Under the pieces are notes generated by a model that was given only the letters and a program-made list of their open reading frames with translations, made no database searches and was not told the DNA's origin. Positions 18,612-44,144 of a stretch of 64,000 bases of DNA are shown here, piece after piece. Source of the stretch: Erysipelotrichales bacterium (GTDB taxonomy: Bacteria; Bacillota_I; Bacilli_A; RF39; UBA660); the NCBI GenBank assembly GCA_022508565.1, contig JAFLUY010000005.1, positions 1 through 64,000 of the forward strand, given 5' to 3'. The translations under genes were made by a program, and so were the position numbers. Every line of letters begins with the position of its first letter. Position 1 is the first letter of the stretch.

Positions 18612-18624
18612 TTGGTCTTTTTAT
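18597..18624. terminator. Bidirectional terminator overlapping the Nudix stop codon
   Basis: Stem AAAGACCAA / TTGGTCTTT with a four-base loop contains the TAA stop in its loop; A/T flanks serve both convergent genes. Confidence 0.75.
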
Positions 18625-19517
18625 TATAAATCATTTATTACTCCATTAATTAAATTTAAATCAGATGGAATTATCCAATCTACATTTGTCATTTTAAATA
18701 AAGTTAAAGGAATTATTGCGCCAGCTCTTGCACCATCCATCCATTTTGGATTACCTGGCATTAAATCATATAACTCCTGTAATGTAATATCATAAAATAC
18801 TTTTTCAGTTCCTTTAATATAATCTTCTAAGCTAACCATATATTTATGAACACCATCATCAAATAAAGTATTTGGAACTAAGTTAAATTCTGTTAATAAT
18901 TCAAATCTTTCTTCGCCACCTGTAAAGATTGCACAGTCATAATCAGTATCAAGATTTAAATCATTAAGTTTTTCTTTAACAAAATCATCCATCTCTTCTA
19001 CTGTATTACCACTTACACTCTCATTAACTTTACTAAAGTTATTTAATAGATCGGCAACACCTACTGTTAAATTCTTAGTATCAGTTATTTTATCACCTAC
19101 AAATGTGACTAATTCAGTGGTTTTACCACCCATATTGATAATTAATACTTTTTTTCCATTATAATCATTTTGCATTGCTTTTGCTAAATAATAGTTTTCA
19201 ATGCCATGACTAATAATATTAAAATGTAAGTCAAACTTATCATTAAATAATTTAACTAATTCTTGCTTACGTTCTTGTATAAGATTTCTAAATATACCTG
19301 TTACAAAAATATTAGTATTATCATATCTTAAACCGTATTTTGATTTAATAGATTCAAAATAATGACATAACTCTTGTAAATTAGCTTCACTAATACCTTT
19401 TTCCGGATCAAAATCATTTTTAAAATAAATTGAATTTTCCTCTAAAAGTTTTAGTTCAGTTTCATAACTATAAACTTTAATTGTTGAGGATCCTAAATCG
19501 ATATAATAATTTTTCAC
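18624..19517 (-). CDS. Ppx/GppA-like phosphatase (ASKHA fold)
   Basis: About 297 residues. The first phosphate loop is YYIDLGSSTIKVY, and the second is INMGGKTTELV. The adenosine-like loop is FTGGEERF. This is the actin-like fold of exopolyphosphatase/pppGpp phosphohydrolase, of single-module length without the C-terminal HD extension. GTG at 19517 follows TAGGAG and is preferred. It is paralogous to 27520-28422, which has the same length and layout. Whether it acts on polyphosphate or (p)ppGpp, or is only a binding protein, is open. Confidence 0.72.
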   Translation of the reverse strand: MKNYYIDLGSSTIKVYSYETELKLLEENSIYFKNDFDPEKGISEANLQELCHYFESIKSKYGLRYDNTNIFVTGIFRNLIQERKQELVKLFNDKFDLHFNIISHGIENYYLAKAMQNDYNGKKVLIINMGGKTTELVTFVGDKITDTKNLTVGVADLLNNFSKVNESVSGNTVEEMDDFVKEKLNDLNLDTDYDCAIFTGGEERFELLTEFNLVPNTLFDDGVHKYMVSLEDYIKGTEKVFYDITLQELYDLMPGNPKWMDGARAGAIIPLTLFKMTNVDWIIPSDLNLINGVINDL

Positions 19518-19558
19518 GTCTACCACTCCTACTACAATTATAACATATATTTATCTCT

Positions 19559-27519: not shown

Positions 27520-28422
27520 ATGAAAGAAGAATTAATGGCCATTATTGAAATTGGCAGCAACAACACAAAGACACATATTTATGACGATGATAAAGTAGTT
27601 TATGAACATCTTGCAACAATTGAGTTTAAGAAAAACTATAAATTAGAAGGTAAAATCTTAGAAAGTGACCTAGAAAGTCTTTATAAAGAAATAGAAACTG
27701 CTCTATCTTATACAAACAATGTAAATATTTATGGATGCAGTATATTTAGAAATATAACTAGTGAAGAACTAAATGAAATAAATAATACTTTAGAAGAAAA
27801 ATTTAATTTATCAATTACTGTTGTTTCACAAGAGGAAGAAGCAGAATATACAGCATTAGGTGCATATGGAAATATTGATTATGATGGAAATATCTGTGTG
27901 TTCATTGGTGGAGGTGGATCTACCGAATTAATAATTGTTAATAATAAAAAAATTATCGATAAAAAATATCTGGACTTTGGCGTAGTCGATATTACTAGTC
28001 ATTTTCCTGATTTAAAAGAAGATATTGCAACAGTGTCATTTGATGATGCATACTCATATGTTTATTCATTAATTGGTGAATTTAATCCACAATGCGATAT
28101 TATGATACTTTCTGGCGGCAATCATCCATACTGGTATCAAAATGCAGAGTTTGAACTTCTTGATAACACATTATATAAATGTGCAAATCAACCTTCAATG
28201 TTAACTATTGAAATGAGCGATAAGTATGATCGTGAAGCTTTGAAGATTTCACTTGATAAAGTTAGAAGCAATAGTGACAACCCACCTTGGTTTGATGGTT
28301 CAAGAGCAATGAAGATAATTACTAATGTTATATCACATAGAATAAATGCTAAATATATTATTCCAACGAATATAAACATGGAAGATGGAATAAGAAATAA
28401 ATTATTAAATAAAGAGGATTAA
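27520..28422 (+). CDS. Ppx/GppA-like phosphatase (second copy)
   Basis: A 300-residue actin-like-fold protein. The first loop is IIEIGSNNTKTHIY, the second FIGGGGSTELIIV, and the third LSGGNHPYW. A conserved Glu-rich stretch (SQEEEAEYTA) matches the catalytic-Glu region of exopolyphosphatases. It is paralogous to 18624-19517 with equal length and a shared PPWFDGSRA/PKWMDGARA motif near the C-terminus. AAAGGAGATT precedes the ATG. It ends in a shared terminator. Confidence 0.75.
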   Translation: MKEELMAIIEIGSNNTKTHIYDDDKVVYEHLATIEFKKNYKLEGKILESDLESLYKEIETALSYTNNVNIYGCSIFRNITSEELNEINNTLEEKFNLSITVVSQEEEAEYTALGAYGNIDYDGNICVFIGGGGSTELIIVNNKKIIDKKYLDFGVVDITSHFPDLKEDIATVSFDDAYSYVYSLIGEFNPQCDIMILSGGNHPYWYQNAEFELLDNTLYKCANQPSMLTIEMSDKYDREALKISLDKVRSNSDNPPWFDGSRAMKIITNVISHRINAKYIIPTNINMEDGIRNKLLNKED

Positions 28423-39481: not shown

Positions 39482-39507
39482 AAAAAAGAGTTTGCATTAA
39501 CTCTTTA
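39482..39507 (-). terminator. Terminator of the PurA-like operon
   Basis: Stem AAAGAGTT / AACTCTTT with a six-base loop; on the minus strand it is followed by TTTTTC. It overlaps the stop codon region. Confidence 0.65.
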
Positions 39508-40932
39508 TTTTTTTATCATTTCTAATCTTTTAATGACTTCTCCATTTTTCGCACCAGTTCCTAGCGATAAAACACTGGTGTTTGTTTCACTTTCTAGCCA
39601 TTCTATATATCTATCAATATTATCATAATTTACTAGATATTTATTTTTTATATCTTCATAATTTCCTTGTTTTTCAAATAACCCATAATCAAATTGTTGA
39701 AAAAAATTTAAATATAAACCATGTGGATTATTAATTCTAACATTGTTCTTTAGTTTATAAATATCTAAATCAAATATTCTTCTTTCTTTTTTTGTTACAC
39801 TAGTCATTTCACTTAAATCAGTAATAATATAATCTGGACTTTCAAATACCCTTCCGTTATTATTTATTCTTTTTATTACAATTGACTTATAAGCTCGTTC
39901 ACCCTTTATCTTATGGTATATTCTCTCTATTTCTAAAGCGAGAATTAAATTTATCTCATTTTTTTCTAATGTTTCTCTTTCCACTCCATTTAGTAATTGT
40001 ATTTTATAAATAACTGGTAACATATTATACATTTCAATAATTTCATTTATTGATTCATCTAAAATAGATTTAGCATGATATGCAAATTCATAATAAATTT
40101 CTCTAGGACAATTATTTCTAAAAGGATAGACGCCATTTTGTGAAGCTAAATTCACCTCACTCCATGTTAGTTCAGCTCCAGTACCATAACTGCCTGTAAA
40201 CATATATGCACCATCTTTTGTAACATTACTTATTCTAATTGGAAATGGTCTTATTACCATAATCGTTTGAAGCAATCTTTCTGGTGAAATTCCTGAATCA
40301 GCCAGTAATTGAGAAGTAGAAACGTTTCTACTTGTAACAAACGGATAATTACCACTATGATTTAAATCTAAATCACAACCCTGAGCACCTTCTAACATTA
40401 CATACTCGTCATTTTTATCAAGATGGCTATATAATCTTTCTAGCCATTCATCATTAGAGCAAGCTATAGCGTTTTTATAAGTTTTGAAAAACTCTAATTT
40501 TTTATCTCTAATAACTTTTTCTTGAGTTACTGCCCCACAGCCTTTAAATGTTGAGCCACTTTTAATATGTTCTCTTTCATATTTTTTATGTCGTTCTACA
40601 ATTAATGGAACCATTTCGTGAACATATATTTTTCTATCTCCCAAATATTTTTTTACCTGGGCATACTCTTCTATAAATACATCCATATCAATAGCTGAAC
40701 CTGGACCAATAAATAGTTCAATATTTGGGTTAACTGATGATACAGGAATATTTCTAAAGATAGTAGCATGACCTTTCTCATCAACAAAAGTATGGCCTGC
40801 ATTTGGCATACAATTAGTTACAGATGCTCTGATATTGATATTTGGGTCTGTTACTAATTCACCAATAACTTTTGCTTTTCCGCAAGAACCAGCTGCACCA
40901 TCAATTACACATATAACATTTCTGTTAACCAT
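39505..40932 (-). CDS. Adenylosuccinate-synthetase homologue with altered P-loop (PurZ-like)
   Basis: A 475-residue PurA-superfamily protein. Conserved landmarks are NAGHT (44-48), IFRNIP, a GSTFKGCGA loop matching PurA's GTTGRGIGP, VMLEGAQGCDLD and a C-terminal SLGTGAKNGEV. The P-loop, GDEGKGK in PurA, reads GSCGKAK here: the catalytic-base Asp (E. coli Asp13) is Ser16. From memory, Asp loss at this position marks PurZ enzymes that make 2-aminoadenine nucleotides in Z-genome phages. The protein is somewhat longer than PurA. It is last in an operon with two DNA-glycosylase-like genes. Substrate is inference. Confidence 0.8.
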   Translation of the reverse strand: MVNRNVICVIDGAAGSCGKAKVIGELVTDPNINIRASVTNCMPNAGHTFVDEKGHATIFRNIPVSSVNPNIELFIGPGSAIDMDVFIEEYAQVKKYLGDRKIYVHEMVPLIVERHKKYEREHIKSGSTFKGCGAVTQEKVIRDKKLEFFKTYKNAIACSNDEWLERLYSHLDKNDEYVMLEGAQGCDLDLNHSGNYPFVTSRNVSTSQLLADSGISPERLLQTIMVIRPFPIRISNVTKDGAYMFTGSYGTGAELTWSEVNLASQNGVYPFRNNCPREIYYEFAYHAKSILDESINEIIEMYNMLPVIYKIQLLNGVERETLEKNEINLILALEIERIYHKIKGERAYKSIVIKRINNNGRVFESPDYIITDLSEMTSVTKKERRIFDLDIYKLKNNVRINNPHGLYLNFFQQFDYGLFEKQGNYEDIKNKYLVNYDNIDRYIEWLESETNTSVLSLGTGAKNGEVIKRLEMIKK

Positions 40933-40953: not shown

Positions 40954-41634
40954 TTATAATCTTGGCCCCTTATTTTTTCTTTTAAATTCTATATCTTTGC
41001 TCATGCATATAAATGGATCAATTGAATATCTCTTTAAAAGATCAACAACCCGATCAGACGTCATATTTCTTGAGTTTCCTTGCTCATCAACATTATCTTT
41101 TTGATTAATTAGTAATATTAGTTTATCAGGAAATTCAATTAAACCTTTAAATATTCTACCATCAACACTTTCTGGTTCAAAATGATTATTTATGTAATTA
41201 AAATTTAAATTTCCTTCAAGTACTGGATAGTATGTACAATCGATTAGACCTTTAACTACATTGTCCTTAACTGCATCTTCTAAAACATATTCTTCTCTAG
41301 CAAACCAAATTATTGGAATATCTTGATCATCTTCTATTTTTTGCTCTTGATCTAAGAAACTAACCTCCACAAATTTTTGTCCTTTTTCAGTTAAATACTT
41401 TATTGCGTCTTCTTTAGTAGCTGGTGAATCTTTCATTATCATTATTAAGACATCACTTTCTTCATTATAAATAACTGTATCAAATATACGGGAATGAATA
41501 ATATTTCTACCAATACTTAACATACTTACACAGTTATCATAAATTATACTTAATCCACTTTTAATTTGATCTAAAGCTGTATAAATTTCTGATCCATCTT
41601 CTTGAATAGACCATACATCTAAATTACTATTCAT
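40954..41634 (-). CDS. Uncharacterised protein of the glycosylase/PurA-like operon
   Basis: About 226 residues, soluble and acidic, with no motif I recognise. Predicted strands (VLIMIMKDSP, IPIIWFAREEY, KLILLINQKD) alternate with helices, suggesting an alpha/beta fold. Its ATG at 41634 overlaps the stop of the glycosylase gene (ATGAATAG) after AGGTGAC, so it is translationally coupled. The PurA-like gene begins 21 bases after it. No function is proposed beyond operon membership. Confidence 0.65.
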   Translation of the reverse strand: MNSNLDVWSIQEDGSEIYTALDQIKSGLSIIYDNCVSMLSIGRNIIHSRIFDTVIYNEESDVLIMIMKDSPATKEDAIKYLTEKGQKFVEVSFLDQEQKIEDDQDIPIIWFAREEYVLEDAVKDNVVKGLIDCTYYPVLEGNLNFNYINNHFEPESVDGRIFKGLIEFPDKLILLINQKDNVDEQGNSRNMTSDRVVDLLKRYSIDPFICMSKDIEFKRKNKGPRL

Positions 41635-42322
41635 GTACGTCACCTAATTCTCTCCAAATACTCCTATATCTTTCTAACTGTTTATCATTACTAATTTGTG
41701 CAGTTGGGTGATAAAGAGGAATGATAATATAATTATCTGCTTTTATTATATCATTTTTTTCCAATACCTTACTAAGTGTATCTTCAATTCTAAAATTAAA
41801 TACACTTGCTAAAGCTTTAAGAGGATAATAACCTAATGTCACTATTACTTTTGGTTTAACAATATCAATTTGTCTCACTAAATATTTTGAACAACAAAGT
41901 GTCGAATGATTTAAATTAATATTATTACCTCGATAATTAGATCCACTTCTTGCACACATTATTGCATTTGTAATATATATGTTATTTAAATCACATTCAT
42001 GGTTTTCTAAACTTGCAGATTCACATAAATATTTAAATAGTTTCTTTTTAGTTAAACTTTTTTCTGAATCTATTAAGTCTTGGAAATCTTCTCCATTTTT
42101 AAATCTTTCATAAAGTGATACCATATCTTGATATGGACCCCAGTCTTGACCGATTATAAACAACTCACTATCTAATCTGCCATACCAATCAGTCCAGATT
42201 GAAGGAATATTTTTCGCAATATCAGCATCATAAAAATTTATTAATGATTTATCTTTAAGATTTAAACACTTATTACATTTTGCTAACTCAGTTATTAATA
42301 TATCAAACTCATTATTTTTCAT
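41627..42322 (-). CDS. Uracil-DNA-glycosylase-family protein (family-4-like)
   Basis: A 231-residue UDG-fold protein. Cys16-X2-Cys19 at the N-terminus and two further Cys (ITNAIMC, STLCC) match the four iron-sulfur ligands of family-4 UDGs. YITNAIMCARSGSNYR and KPKVIVTLG follow the family core. Motif A reads IIGQDWGPYQD, unlike the usual GEAPG and partly like family-1 GQDPYH. Motif B is YHPTAQ. It removes uracil or another base in the known family. It overlaps both neighbouring genes. Confidence 0.8.
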   Translation of the reverse strand: MKNNEFDILITELAKCNKCLNLKDKSLINFYDADIAKNIPSIWTDWYGRLDSELFIIGQDWGPYQDMVSLYERFKNGEDFQDLIDSEKSLTKKKLFKYLCESASLENHECDLNNIYITNAIMCARSGSNYRGNNINLNHSTLCCSKYLVRQIDIVKPKVIVTLGYYPLKALASVFNFRIEDTLSKVLEKNDIIKADNYIIIPLYHPTAQISNDKQLERYRSIWRELGDVHE

Positions 42323-43073
42323 CTAAGACACTTTCATCTAATTCTATAAATCCACCTCTACTCCATAACCAAAGTGGTGTATGAATATCAATAGGTTTAT
42401 AAGGAGTATTTTTAAATAAATCTTTCCATCTATCTATAACAACTTGTTGAACACTTGCTGATTCTAATTCTTTATCATTTATTAGTCCAAGTCTATGAGT
42501 GGCTTTTACTACATGTGTATCTGGAGCTACAGTTAATTCTTCTGCATTAATATATCTTGTATCAGTATATTGCATTATTACGTATAACCAATAATTAACT
42601 AACTTAGTTCCACTAATATATGGAAAATCTTTTTTGTGGTTAACAATAAAATCTCTAATCTTATTAACATTATAATTATTTTCTTCAAATAACTTTCTTA
42701 TATCACCATCAAAAAGATTAATAAATGTATTGCACAACTTAATCCATATTTCTGTTTGTTTATTCTTTTGTAATGCAACTTTATATTTAACTAAAGCTGT
42801 TTGTACTTCTTCAAAAGTAGATTCTATAACTTTATAAGGGTCAAAAACAAATCTAGTTTCTTCATCTTTAGCAGTTTTGTTTGCTCCTTCCCATAAGGTA
42901 TAAGAATTCCTTTGATAATTTAAAGACATTGGTAATGTAAAATATATATAGTTTTCTAAAGATGTTAGTTCATAATGAGGATTTTCATCTTCTGGCATTA
43001 CTTCCCCGCCTAGCATACCTTTTTTATACATTGCCATTAGTATCTCACATTTTTTTATTATGCCATTACTCAT
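42312..43073 (-). CDS. HhH-GPD-like DNA glycosylase-fold protein
   Basis: A 253-residue protein. The helix-hairpin-helix position is held by FPYISGTKLVNYWLYVI, followed by VAPDTHVVKATHRLGLI, which matches the 'P.D.HV.R...RLG' motif containing the catalytic Asp of HhH-GPD glycosylases. There is no iron-sulfur cluster. Overall similarity to named families is low. It is the first gene of a four-gene operon; its end overlaps the UDG start by 11 bases. AGGTGATA precedes the ATG. Confidence 0.65.
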   Translation of the reverse strand: MSNGIIKKCEILMAMYKKGMLGGEVMPEDENPHYELTSLENYIYFTLPMSLNYQRNSYTLWEGANKTAKDEETRFVFDPYKVIESTFEEVQTALVKYKVALQKNKQTEIWIKLCNTFINLFDGDIRKLFEENNYNVNKIRDFIVNHKKDFPYISGTKLVNYWLYVIMQYTDTRYINAEELTVAPDTHVVKATHRLGLINDKELESASVQQVVIDRWKDLFKNTPYKPIDIHTPLWLWSRGGFIELDESVLDEK

Positions 43074-43091
43074 AAAGTATCACCTATATAA

Positions 43092-43100
43092 ATTATATCA
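43092..43100 (-). promoter_or_regulatory. Extended -10 promoter of the glycosylase/PurA-like operon
   Basis: On the minus strand TGATATAAT, an extended -10, lies about 20 bases before the start codon of the first gene. The -35 is weak. It sits back to back with the antisense-RNA promoter. Confidence 0.5.
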
Positions 43101-43116
43101 TAAAACAATAATTATA

Positions 43117-43146
43117 TTGTATGAAATCTAATAAAGATGATATAAT
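43117..43146 (+). promoter_or_regulatory. Promoter of the candidate antisense RNA
   Basis: TTGTAT, 18-base spacer, consensus TATAAT. The predicted start near 43152 coincides with the first base pairs of the RNA's 5' hairpin. Confidence 0.6.
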
Positions 43147-43151
43147 TTAAA

Positions 43152-43236
43152 TGTGATAAGTGTTACATTACAAGCTAATACTTTCACATGTTTGCGGTAG
43201 CATCTTATTCAAATGAATAAAGGTGCTTTTTTTTTG
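43152..43236 (+). ncRNA. Candidate antitoxin antisense RNA
   Basis: A predicted RNA of about 85 nucleotides made of two hairpins. The 5' hairpin pairs TGTGATAAGT with ACTTTCACA across a loop. The 3' hairpin is AGCATC-TTATTCA / TGAATAA-A-GGTGCT followed by nine T's. It is transcribed convergently to the small hydrophobic-peptide gene at 43239 and ends just beyond that gene's stop. It is therefore complementary to the 3' untranslated region of its mRNA, the layout of TxpA/RatA- and BsrG/SR4-type type I toxin-antitoxin loci. No expression evidence is available. Confidence 0.55.
43198..43236 (+). terminator. Terminator of the antisense RNA
   Basis: A 13-base-pair stem with one bulged A and a two-base loop, then TTTTTTTTT. 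One arm pair (AGCATC/GGTGCT) is repeated in the toxin leader at 43383-43408. Confidence 0.75.
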
Positions 43237-43238
43237 CT

Positions 43239-43319
43239 TTATAATAACTTATAAAACAAGATAAAAATTATTATAAATAGAAGCAAAAATATCACGAATG
43301 ACATTTCGTTTTTACTCAT
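43239..43319 (-). CDS. Candidate type I toxin: 26-residue hydrophobic peptide
   Basis: Too short for the ORF track. The ATG at 43319 follows AAAAAGGAAGTGAT, an excellent ribosome site. The peptide has a polar N-terminus (MSKNEMS), one uninterrupted hydrophobic stretch of about 16 residues rich in Ile, Leu and Phe, and a short YK-containing end, the form of small membrane toxins. It has its own promoter (43409-43437), a long structured leader and a convergent antisense RNA overlapping its 3' region. An alternative is a small membrane peptide without toxic function. Confidence 0.6.
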   Translation of the reverse strand: MSKNEMSFVIFLLLFIIIFILFYKLL

Positions 43320-43321
43320 AA

Positions 43322-43384
43322 ATATCACTTCCTTTTTACTACTTAACCCCCTGAATAATTTCTGCTTGTGGTCGAAAGTGATAG
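43322..43384 (-). promoter_or_regulatory. Leader sequestering the toxin Shine-Dalgarno
   Basis: In the minus-strand transcript, TATCACTTTC (43374-43383) can pair over ten positions with GGAAGTGATA (43323-43332), which is the whole ribosome binding site; one pair is a G-U. Upstream GAAGTG (43393-43398) could compete for the same CACTT, giving a possible switch. Confidence 0.5.
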
Positions 43385-43408
43385 CATCTTCGCACTTCTC
43401 GAGGTGCT

Positions 43409-43437
43409 ATATTAATTAATTGTTTTTCTCATTTCAA
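43409..43437 (-). promoter_or_regulatory. Promoter of the candidate toxin gene
   Basis: On the minus strand TTGAAA, 17-base spacer, TAATAT. The predicted transcript starts at the leader hairpin (AGCACCT...). Confidence 0.6.
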
Positions 43438-43454
43438 CACACCTGACAAATAAT

Positions 43455-43487
43455 GACAAAAAAAAGATAAAATTGCTTTTATCTTAT
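43455..43487 (-). terminator. Terminator of the second UDG-like gene
   Basis: Stem AAGATAAAA / TTTTATCTT, four-base loop, and TTTTTTTG on the minus strand. It insulates the toxin promoter from upstream transcription. Confidence 0.8.
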
Positions 43488-44144
43488 TGTCTTAATAATC
43501 CATTTAATATCTTCAATTGATTTATCTATATTAAATATACCATTGCCAATTGGATAATAAACTGAATAAAAATCATATGAATTACCATTTATTTCTTTAA
43601 CAAATTTTTGTTTTCTAGTTTCAGATACACTTATCTTTTTTTCTAGTACAATTGAACTAACTTGATTCCCAAATAAAATTATTACTTTTGGTTTGATTAT
43701 TTCAAATTCGCATTCCAAAAATTTTTTATATTGTAAAAATACCGAATCAGGTAAAGGTCTTGCATCTATTTGAGTACATTTACCTAAGTTAGTTATAAAT
43801 ACTTTATGTTTTCTAACATTAGCATAAACAGACTCTGCAAATTCAACTGTCCAATCACTACCTTTAATTGATCGAACTTCCTCATAAATATCTTTATCTA
43901 AAAGACCTACTTTATAAAAAAGGGTCCAAATATTTTTTGTTCCGATCCATGGAGATTTAGGCCCAACCCATTCTTTACTTGATGCCACATTTCTTCCTGT
44001 TGGATTCATAAATACAAAACAAATATCAGGATTTTCACTGCAACCGCCATTGTATATGGAATCTAGTTCTTTTGCTCCATACTTTCTCTGTAATTTATCA
44101 TATTCAATTTTTAAATCCTCTAAAGTATTATAAGTTTTAATCAT
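43479..44144 (-). CDS. UDG-superfamily protein (non-Fe-S)
   Basis: A 221-residue protein with the uracil-DNA-glycosylase-superfamily core: motif A region FVFMNPTGRNVAS, then ITNLGKCTQ, KPKVIILFGNQVSS and a late VYYPIGNG in the motif B position. It lacks the cysteine cluster of family 4 and the canonical active-site Asn/His pair is not obvious. The substrate may be a non-uracil base. AGAGGAGT precedes the ATG. It lies just upstream of the toxin-antitoxin locus and the glycosylase operon on the same strand. Confidence 0.7.
   Translation of the reverse strand: MIKTYNTLEDLKIEYDKLQRKYGAKELDSIYNGGCSENPDICFVFMNPTGRNVASSKEWVGPKSPWIGTKNIWTLFYKVGLLDKDIYEEVRSIKGSDWTVEFAESVYANVRKHKVFITNLGKCTQIDARPLPDSVFLQYKKFLECEFEIIKPKVIILFGNQVSSIVLEKKISVSETRKQKFVKEINGNSYDFYSVYYPIGNGIFNIDKSIEDIKWIIKTIR

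Follow-up and report, generated by a model that had tools for sequence, protein, structure and literature searches.

A chromosomal PurZ-like ligase of uncultured Bacilli that probably converts guanylate to a succino-nucleotide

Introduction

In the literature that we found, PurZ is described as an enzyme of phages, with a few relatives in archaea (PMC12884076; PMC8342488). The phage proteins (S-2L, phiVC8; structures 7odx and 6fm1) are succino-2-amino-deoxyadenylate synthases, which catalyse the opening step towards 2-aminoadenine (Z), an alternative DNA base. Of the sequences in the published PurZ group, 147 come from phages, all with Ser in place of Asp13, and four from archaea (PMC12884076). 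MazZ supplies dGMP to PurZ in phages; expression of the phage Z-cluster in E. coli places Z, a base toxic to this host, in the bacterial DNA (PMC8342488). The published tree was built with just two sequences from each prokaryotic phylum (PMC12884076), so a bacterial PurZ clade could have been missed. No report of a bacterial PurZ, or of a defence function for a PurA homologue, was found in the literature searched, which was mostly open-access. Here we compare with these systems a PurZ-like gene and its relatives on bacterial chromosomes, starting from a window of 64,000 nucleotides (the whole stretch of DNA that was analysed) from the genome of an Erysipelotrichales bacterium.

Results

The window encodes a 475-aa homologue of adenylosuccinate synthetase, predicted to be of PurZ type, on the minus strand at positions 39505–40932 (start ATG at 40932, stop at 39505), with a helical insertion at residues ~273–360. 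The open reading frame is not a chance one, since the protein matches PF00709, a broad superfamily model (104.7 bits, cut-off 27), the NCBIfam PurZ model NF038379 (E = 1.6e-51, its top NCBIfam match, ahead of the PurA models) and a PHROG for 2-aminooxy adenylosuccinate synthetase (E = 8.3e-49). The cut-offs of the two more specific NCBIfam models were missed, both for the NF038379 equivalog (175 bits, 300 required) and for the PurA model TIGR00184 (108.9 bits, 395.55 required). Residues 15–21 of the P-loop read GSCGKAK, vs GDEGKGK in PurA, and Ser16 aligns with Asp13 of E. coli PurA. This Asp-to-Ser replacement, pointed out in an earlier note on this DNA, was confirmed and is invariant in 33 of 33 aligned orthologues; the other motifs that the note had listed as kept, NAGHT (44–48), GSTFKGCGA (126–134) and EGAQG (181–185), are all present. 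Also invariant among the 33 orthologues are C17, G18, K19, N40–T48 and many other residues. On either side of the active site of the protein (39508–40932) stand Cys17 and Cys41, both invariant and specific to the family; PurZ, PurZ0 and PurA have no Cys at these positions.

To place the family, PurZ and PurZ0 sequences taken from annotated phage records were aligned with PurA, the Pyrococcus PurA row being pieced together from aligned stretches with a short loop missing. Numbered as in E. coli PurA, the active-site residues of the PurZ-like family are S13, K16, N38, H41, T129, R143, Q224, T239, R241, T301, K/M303, R305, F331 and Q/E333. Phage PurZ in the same alignment has S13, R241, F331 and N or Q at 333; PurZ0 also has S13, but combines it with S241 and D333, and PurA has D13, R303 and D333. 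Asp333, which gives PurA its GTP preference, is thus lost in the family (F410 and Q412 in the window protein), and the Phe/Gln found at this site is as in ATP-using PurZ. At 15 PurZ-diagnostic positions the family matches at least six of the seven PurZ sequences and no PurA in the set; as counter-evidence, it matches PurA and not PurZ at seven positions. In the maximum-likelihood tree the PurZ-like family is a fully supported group (100/100) and sister to the main phage PurZ clade (98/92), with the PurZ of Bacillus phage BpsS-140 outside both (99/95). The alignment and phylogeny that the earlier note had proposed as a check therefore nest the family inside PurZ. Together with the diagnostic positions, this nesting supports the note's view that the protein is not a plain PurA but PurZ-like, and its suggestion that another purine nucleotide may be the substrate is in line with the same sequence evidence. 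The AlphaFold model of the protein (pLDDT 84.8) matched an archaeal PurA best among solved structures (5k7x, Z 37.1, 27% identity), followed by phage PurZ (6fm1, Z 35.7 over 321 residues, 32% identity).

The family thus shares with phage PurZ the fold, Ser for Asp13, the MPNAGHT motif, the VTKxxRRxF aspartate loop and the loss of the GTP-specifying Asp333. Unlike phage PurZ, it is chromosomal in Bacilli, longer (through the helical insertion in most members) and marked by the invariant Cys17/Cys41 pair; it is accompanied by a Ppx/GppA-like partner instead of DatZ/MazZ, and its hosts lack PurB (see below). PurZ0 of actinophages (7vf6) has the same fold and Ser for Asp13, but keeps Asp333 and Ser241 and branches elsewhere. 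PurA (E. coli, and the archaeal short form 5k7x) shares the fold and most substrate-binding residues, whereas the family replaces Asp13, Arg303 and Asp333 and falls outside the PurA clade. PurZ-like proteins of rhizobial plasmids (L088, L089, L109 and L111) are likewise bacterial and accessory and have Ser for Asp13; they differ in keeping Asp333, in being mostly fused to a kinase-like domain and in forming separate branches. All four rhizobial genes lie on large plasmids, and three are long forms (533–537 aa), each overlapped by a downstream gene; in the one that was scanned, L089, the kinase-like domain is N-terminal and the overlapping gene is DUF7002. On S. medicae pMl5 a DCD-like gene comes after the PurZ-like gene and an HD/YfbR-like gene is close by, a gene content resembling that of a phage Z-cluster, and L111 adjoins AbiJ-NTD4 and RelA/SpoT genes.

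One scan of 84,980 species genomes yielded 58 related loci. Identity along the best-matching segment is mostly 50–69% and reaches 83% in partial loci. Every locus lies in a metagenome-assembled genome (MAG), the labels being uncultured Bacilli, Bacillales, Tenericutes, Firmicutes, Mycoplasma or unnamed bacteria; Candidatus Onthousia and Ventrenecus account for two. The insertion at residues ~273–360 is present in most members and missing from a deep branch (L054–L057). The gene is under purifying selection, with dN/dS of ~0.06–0.26 among close pairs. In the order sampled it was found in 29 of 288 genomes and 20 of 102 genera, and remnant or broken copies occur in G006, G033, L021, L052 and L058, although MAG assembly errors can mimic the frameshifts in such copies. 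Such patchiness and breakage are typical of a cassette that is dispensable and transferable. A recent phage origin was considered and is unlikely, because no related locus was found on viral contigs with the PurZ-like query and phage matches to the protein are at most 35% identical.

We asked which other steps of adenylate synthesis are present. In the window's genome (1.69 Mb, 95.4% complete) the PurZ-like gene is the sole PF00709 gene, so a canonical purA is missing there, and purB was found neither in this genome nor in any of 36 sampled family members. PF00206, which covers the whole aspartase/fumarase/adenylosuccinate-lyase superfamily, was missing from 9 of 9 genomes searched of the genus and from 43 of 43 searched genomes bearing the PurZ-like gene, while the search was positive in all 14 control genomes. 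PurB loss characterises the lineage as a whole, not just the bearers of the PurZ-like gene. Three genomes of the same family (G014, G015 and G020) have a canonical-looking purA with purB not detected, which leaves their purA without a known next step.

These absences bear on two readings of the gene. The first is that of an ordinary PurA that converts IMP to adenylosuccinate after loss of the canonical purA, as the missing purA and the retained core catalytic residues might suggest. For the earlier note, its own view would fail if the genome lacked a canonical purA and this gene complemented PurA. The absence of a canonical purA was borne out; as to complementation, the gene could not replace PurA for AMP in a cell with neither purB nor a PF00206 lyase. 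The substitution of Asp13, Asp333 and Arg303 and the patchiness of the gene within its family, where most relatives do without it, also count against an ordinary PurA, which we regard as very unlikely. The second reading is that the bacterium makes Z nucleotides, with an unrecognised lyase in PurB's place. It draws on the PurZ-type active site and phylogeny and on the Z found in bacterial DNA when the Z-cluster is expressed in E. coli (PMC8342488). However, with no PF00206 lyase in any of the 43 genomes, the known second step of Z synthesis, the finishing step that PurB performs in the Z-DNA system, is missing, which argues against a phage-style role in dZTP synthesis. The adjacent genes gave no DatZ- or MazZ-like Pfam match, and the toxicity of Z in E. 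coli (PMC8342488) further speaks against Z production, leaving this reading improbable, if somewhat less so than an ordinary PurA. Among the window genes scanned, no DatZ/MazZ or DutZ/DmtZ genes were seen. By sequence the protein is PurZ-like, and we place it outside the NCBIfam PurZ equivalog because the cut-off was unmet, and outside the phage Z-DNA system because the lyase is missing.

In 30 of the 58 PurZ-like loci a Ppx/GppA-like gene of ~300 aa lies 14–24 bp upstream on the same strand; these include three loci of the deep branch, and in L054 the gene is 1.1 kb away. The window copy (18624–19526, minus strand, 300 aa) lies ~20 kb from the PurZ-like gene, and a 29%-identical paralogue is found at 27520–28422. 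Across genera the partner proteins share 75–85% identity with the window copy, a higher conservation than that of the ligase. Among the 288 genomes of the order, ligase and partner occur together in 17, the ligase alone in 12 and the partner alone in 12 (odds ratio 29, p = 1e-12, the p value being optimistic as the genomes are related), and the two genes are adjacent in 12 of the 17 co-occurring genomes with a gap of 22–53 bp. The partner was not found in the ligase-bearing genomes G001, G007 and G008, which are 84–88% complete. The PurZ-like gene and its partner thus form an accessory cassette, a conserved operon.

The partner scored 34.9 against PF02541 (gathering score 27), and Foldseek assigns its model (pLDDT 75.6, pTM 0.67) to the Ppx/GppA fold (E = 4e-18), NTPDases ranking next. 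Like the Ppx/GppA phosphatases 1t6c and 6pc0, it combines this fold with both catalytic-region Glu residues; it departs from them in its GGKTT loop, its length (~300 aa vs ~480–500 for GppA) and an invariant Asn131 that replaces the metal-binding Asp of DxGGGST. Because of this Asn, whether the partner is itself catalytically active is uncertain.

The other neighbours were considered as possible partners. The ligase closes a run of four minus-strand genes in the window, closely spaced or overlapping, which encode in order a 253-aa protein (42312–43073), a protein of the uracil-DNA-glycosylase (UDG) superfamily that is family-4-like (41627–42322), a 229-aa protein with no family assigned (40954–41643) and the ligase. 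The 229-aa gene is directly upstream of the PurZ-like gene also in L052 and L067 and is not a general partner. The 253-aa protein, possibly a helix-hairpin-helix protein, has sub-threshold matches to DUF2400 and endonuclease III; no clear Pfam or NCBIfam match was obtained and a search of solved structures (PDB) was empty. Relatives in three other loci are 68–71% identical to it. Just upstream of the four-gene group, a second UDG-superfamily gene (43479–44144, minus strand) carries NPTG and YP[IV]GNG motifs, which are invariant; it is present in 112 of the 288 genomes of the order, and its catalytic motifs appear to differ from those of known uracil-DNA glycosylases. One further locus (L118, in G147) has homologues of the Ppx-like, 253-aa, ASCH, NUDIX and UDG-like genes within ~5 kb and no PurZ-like gene.

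The arrangement in the window could reflect a joint base-modification and excision system formed by the ligase and the glycosylase-superfamily proteins at 41627–44144. The genes look like one operon both in the window and in L052, UDG-like genes lie directly downstream of the PurZ-like gene in L018 and L046 (in L046 an orthologue of the 41627–42322 gene), relatives of the window neighbours adjoin ligase or partner in other genera, and the proximity of UDG-like genes to ligase or partner was highly significant against a random-position model. However, PurZ-like genes lay no more than 5 kb from a member of the same UDG-like family in 3 of 16 cases and Ppx-like genes in 4 of 21, and an unrelated accessory HAD-like gene used as a control was so in 2 of 11 genomes. 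The control giving the same rate, the glycosylase link was dropped; the proximity is attributed to shared variable regions, and a joint system is highly improbable, the least probable of the readings considered here. The tie of the 253-aa and 43479–44144 genes to the PurZ-like gene is not above the accessory background.

Discussion

We propose that the gene, carried by a group of uncultured gut Bacilli, encodes a chromosomal bacterial PurZ-type ligase that probably converts guanylate to a succino-nucleotide, the product itself probably being the end product. The reaction class, judged from the sequence, is likely to be an ATP-driven ligation of aspartate to guanylate: ATP would activate a 2-amino purine monophosphate, dGMP or GMP, at O6, and L-aspartate would be joined to the activated nucleotide, giving N6-succino-2-amino-(deoxy)adenylate. 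The GppA-fold partner would probably supply or control the guanine nucleotide; by analogy with MazZ in phages, it may feed guanylate to the ligase. Since no known lyase is available in the cell to split the product, although a non-homologous one may exist, the succino-nucleotide would probably serve as a guanylate trap or an effector nucleotide and not as a step to 2-aminoadenine DNA. What such an end product would do, whether trap, effector or defence, is a guess.

A more specific version of this proposal, which we put forward tentatively and consider possible though less than even, is a mobile two-gene cassette in which hydrolase and ligase convert guanylate to a succino-nucleotide as end product, used as a trap, a signal or an anti-phage effector, in host cells unable to make or split adenylosuccinate. 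An anti-phage module proper, in which a pair induced by infection depletes dGMP/GMP or makes a toxic succino-nucleotide as a form of nucleotide-depletion defence, would fit a two-gene cassette found in varied contexts, its patchy distribution and repeated breakage, and a dead-end product. These features are not peculiar to defence, however, and PADLOC gave no match for the ligase and its six upstream neighbours (seven proteins, a scan that the Ppx-like partner fell outside), so we regard such a module as unlikely.

If the two-gene cassette reading is true, the family would put PurZ chemistry to a cellular use outside phages. A conserved bacterial clade under selection in PurB-less cells suggests that dGMP–aspartate ligation serves a purpose other than Z-DNA, and such a clade bears on the origin of phage PurZ. 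The ligase and its partner offer a ready enzyme pair for biochemistry.
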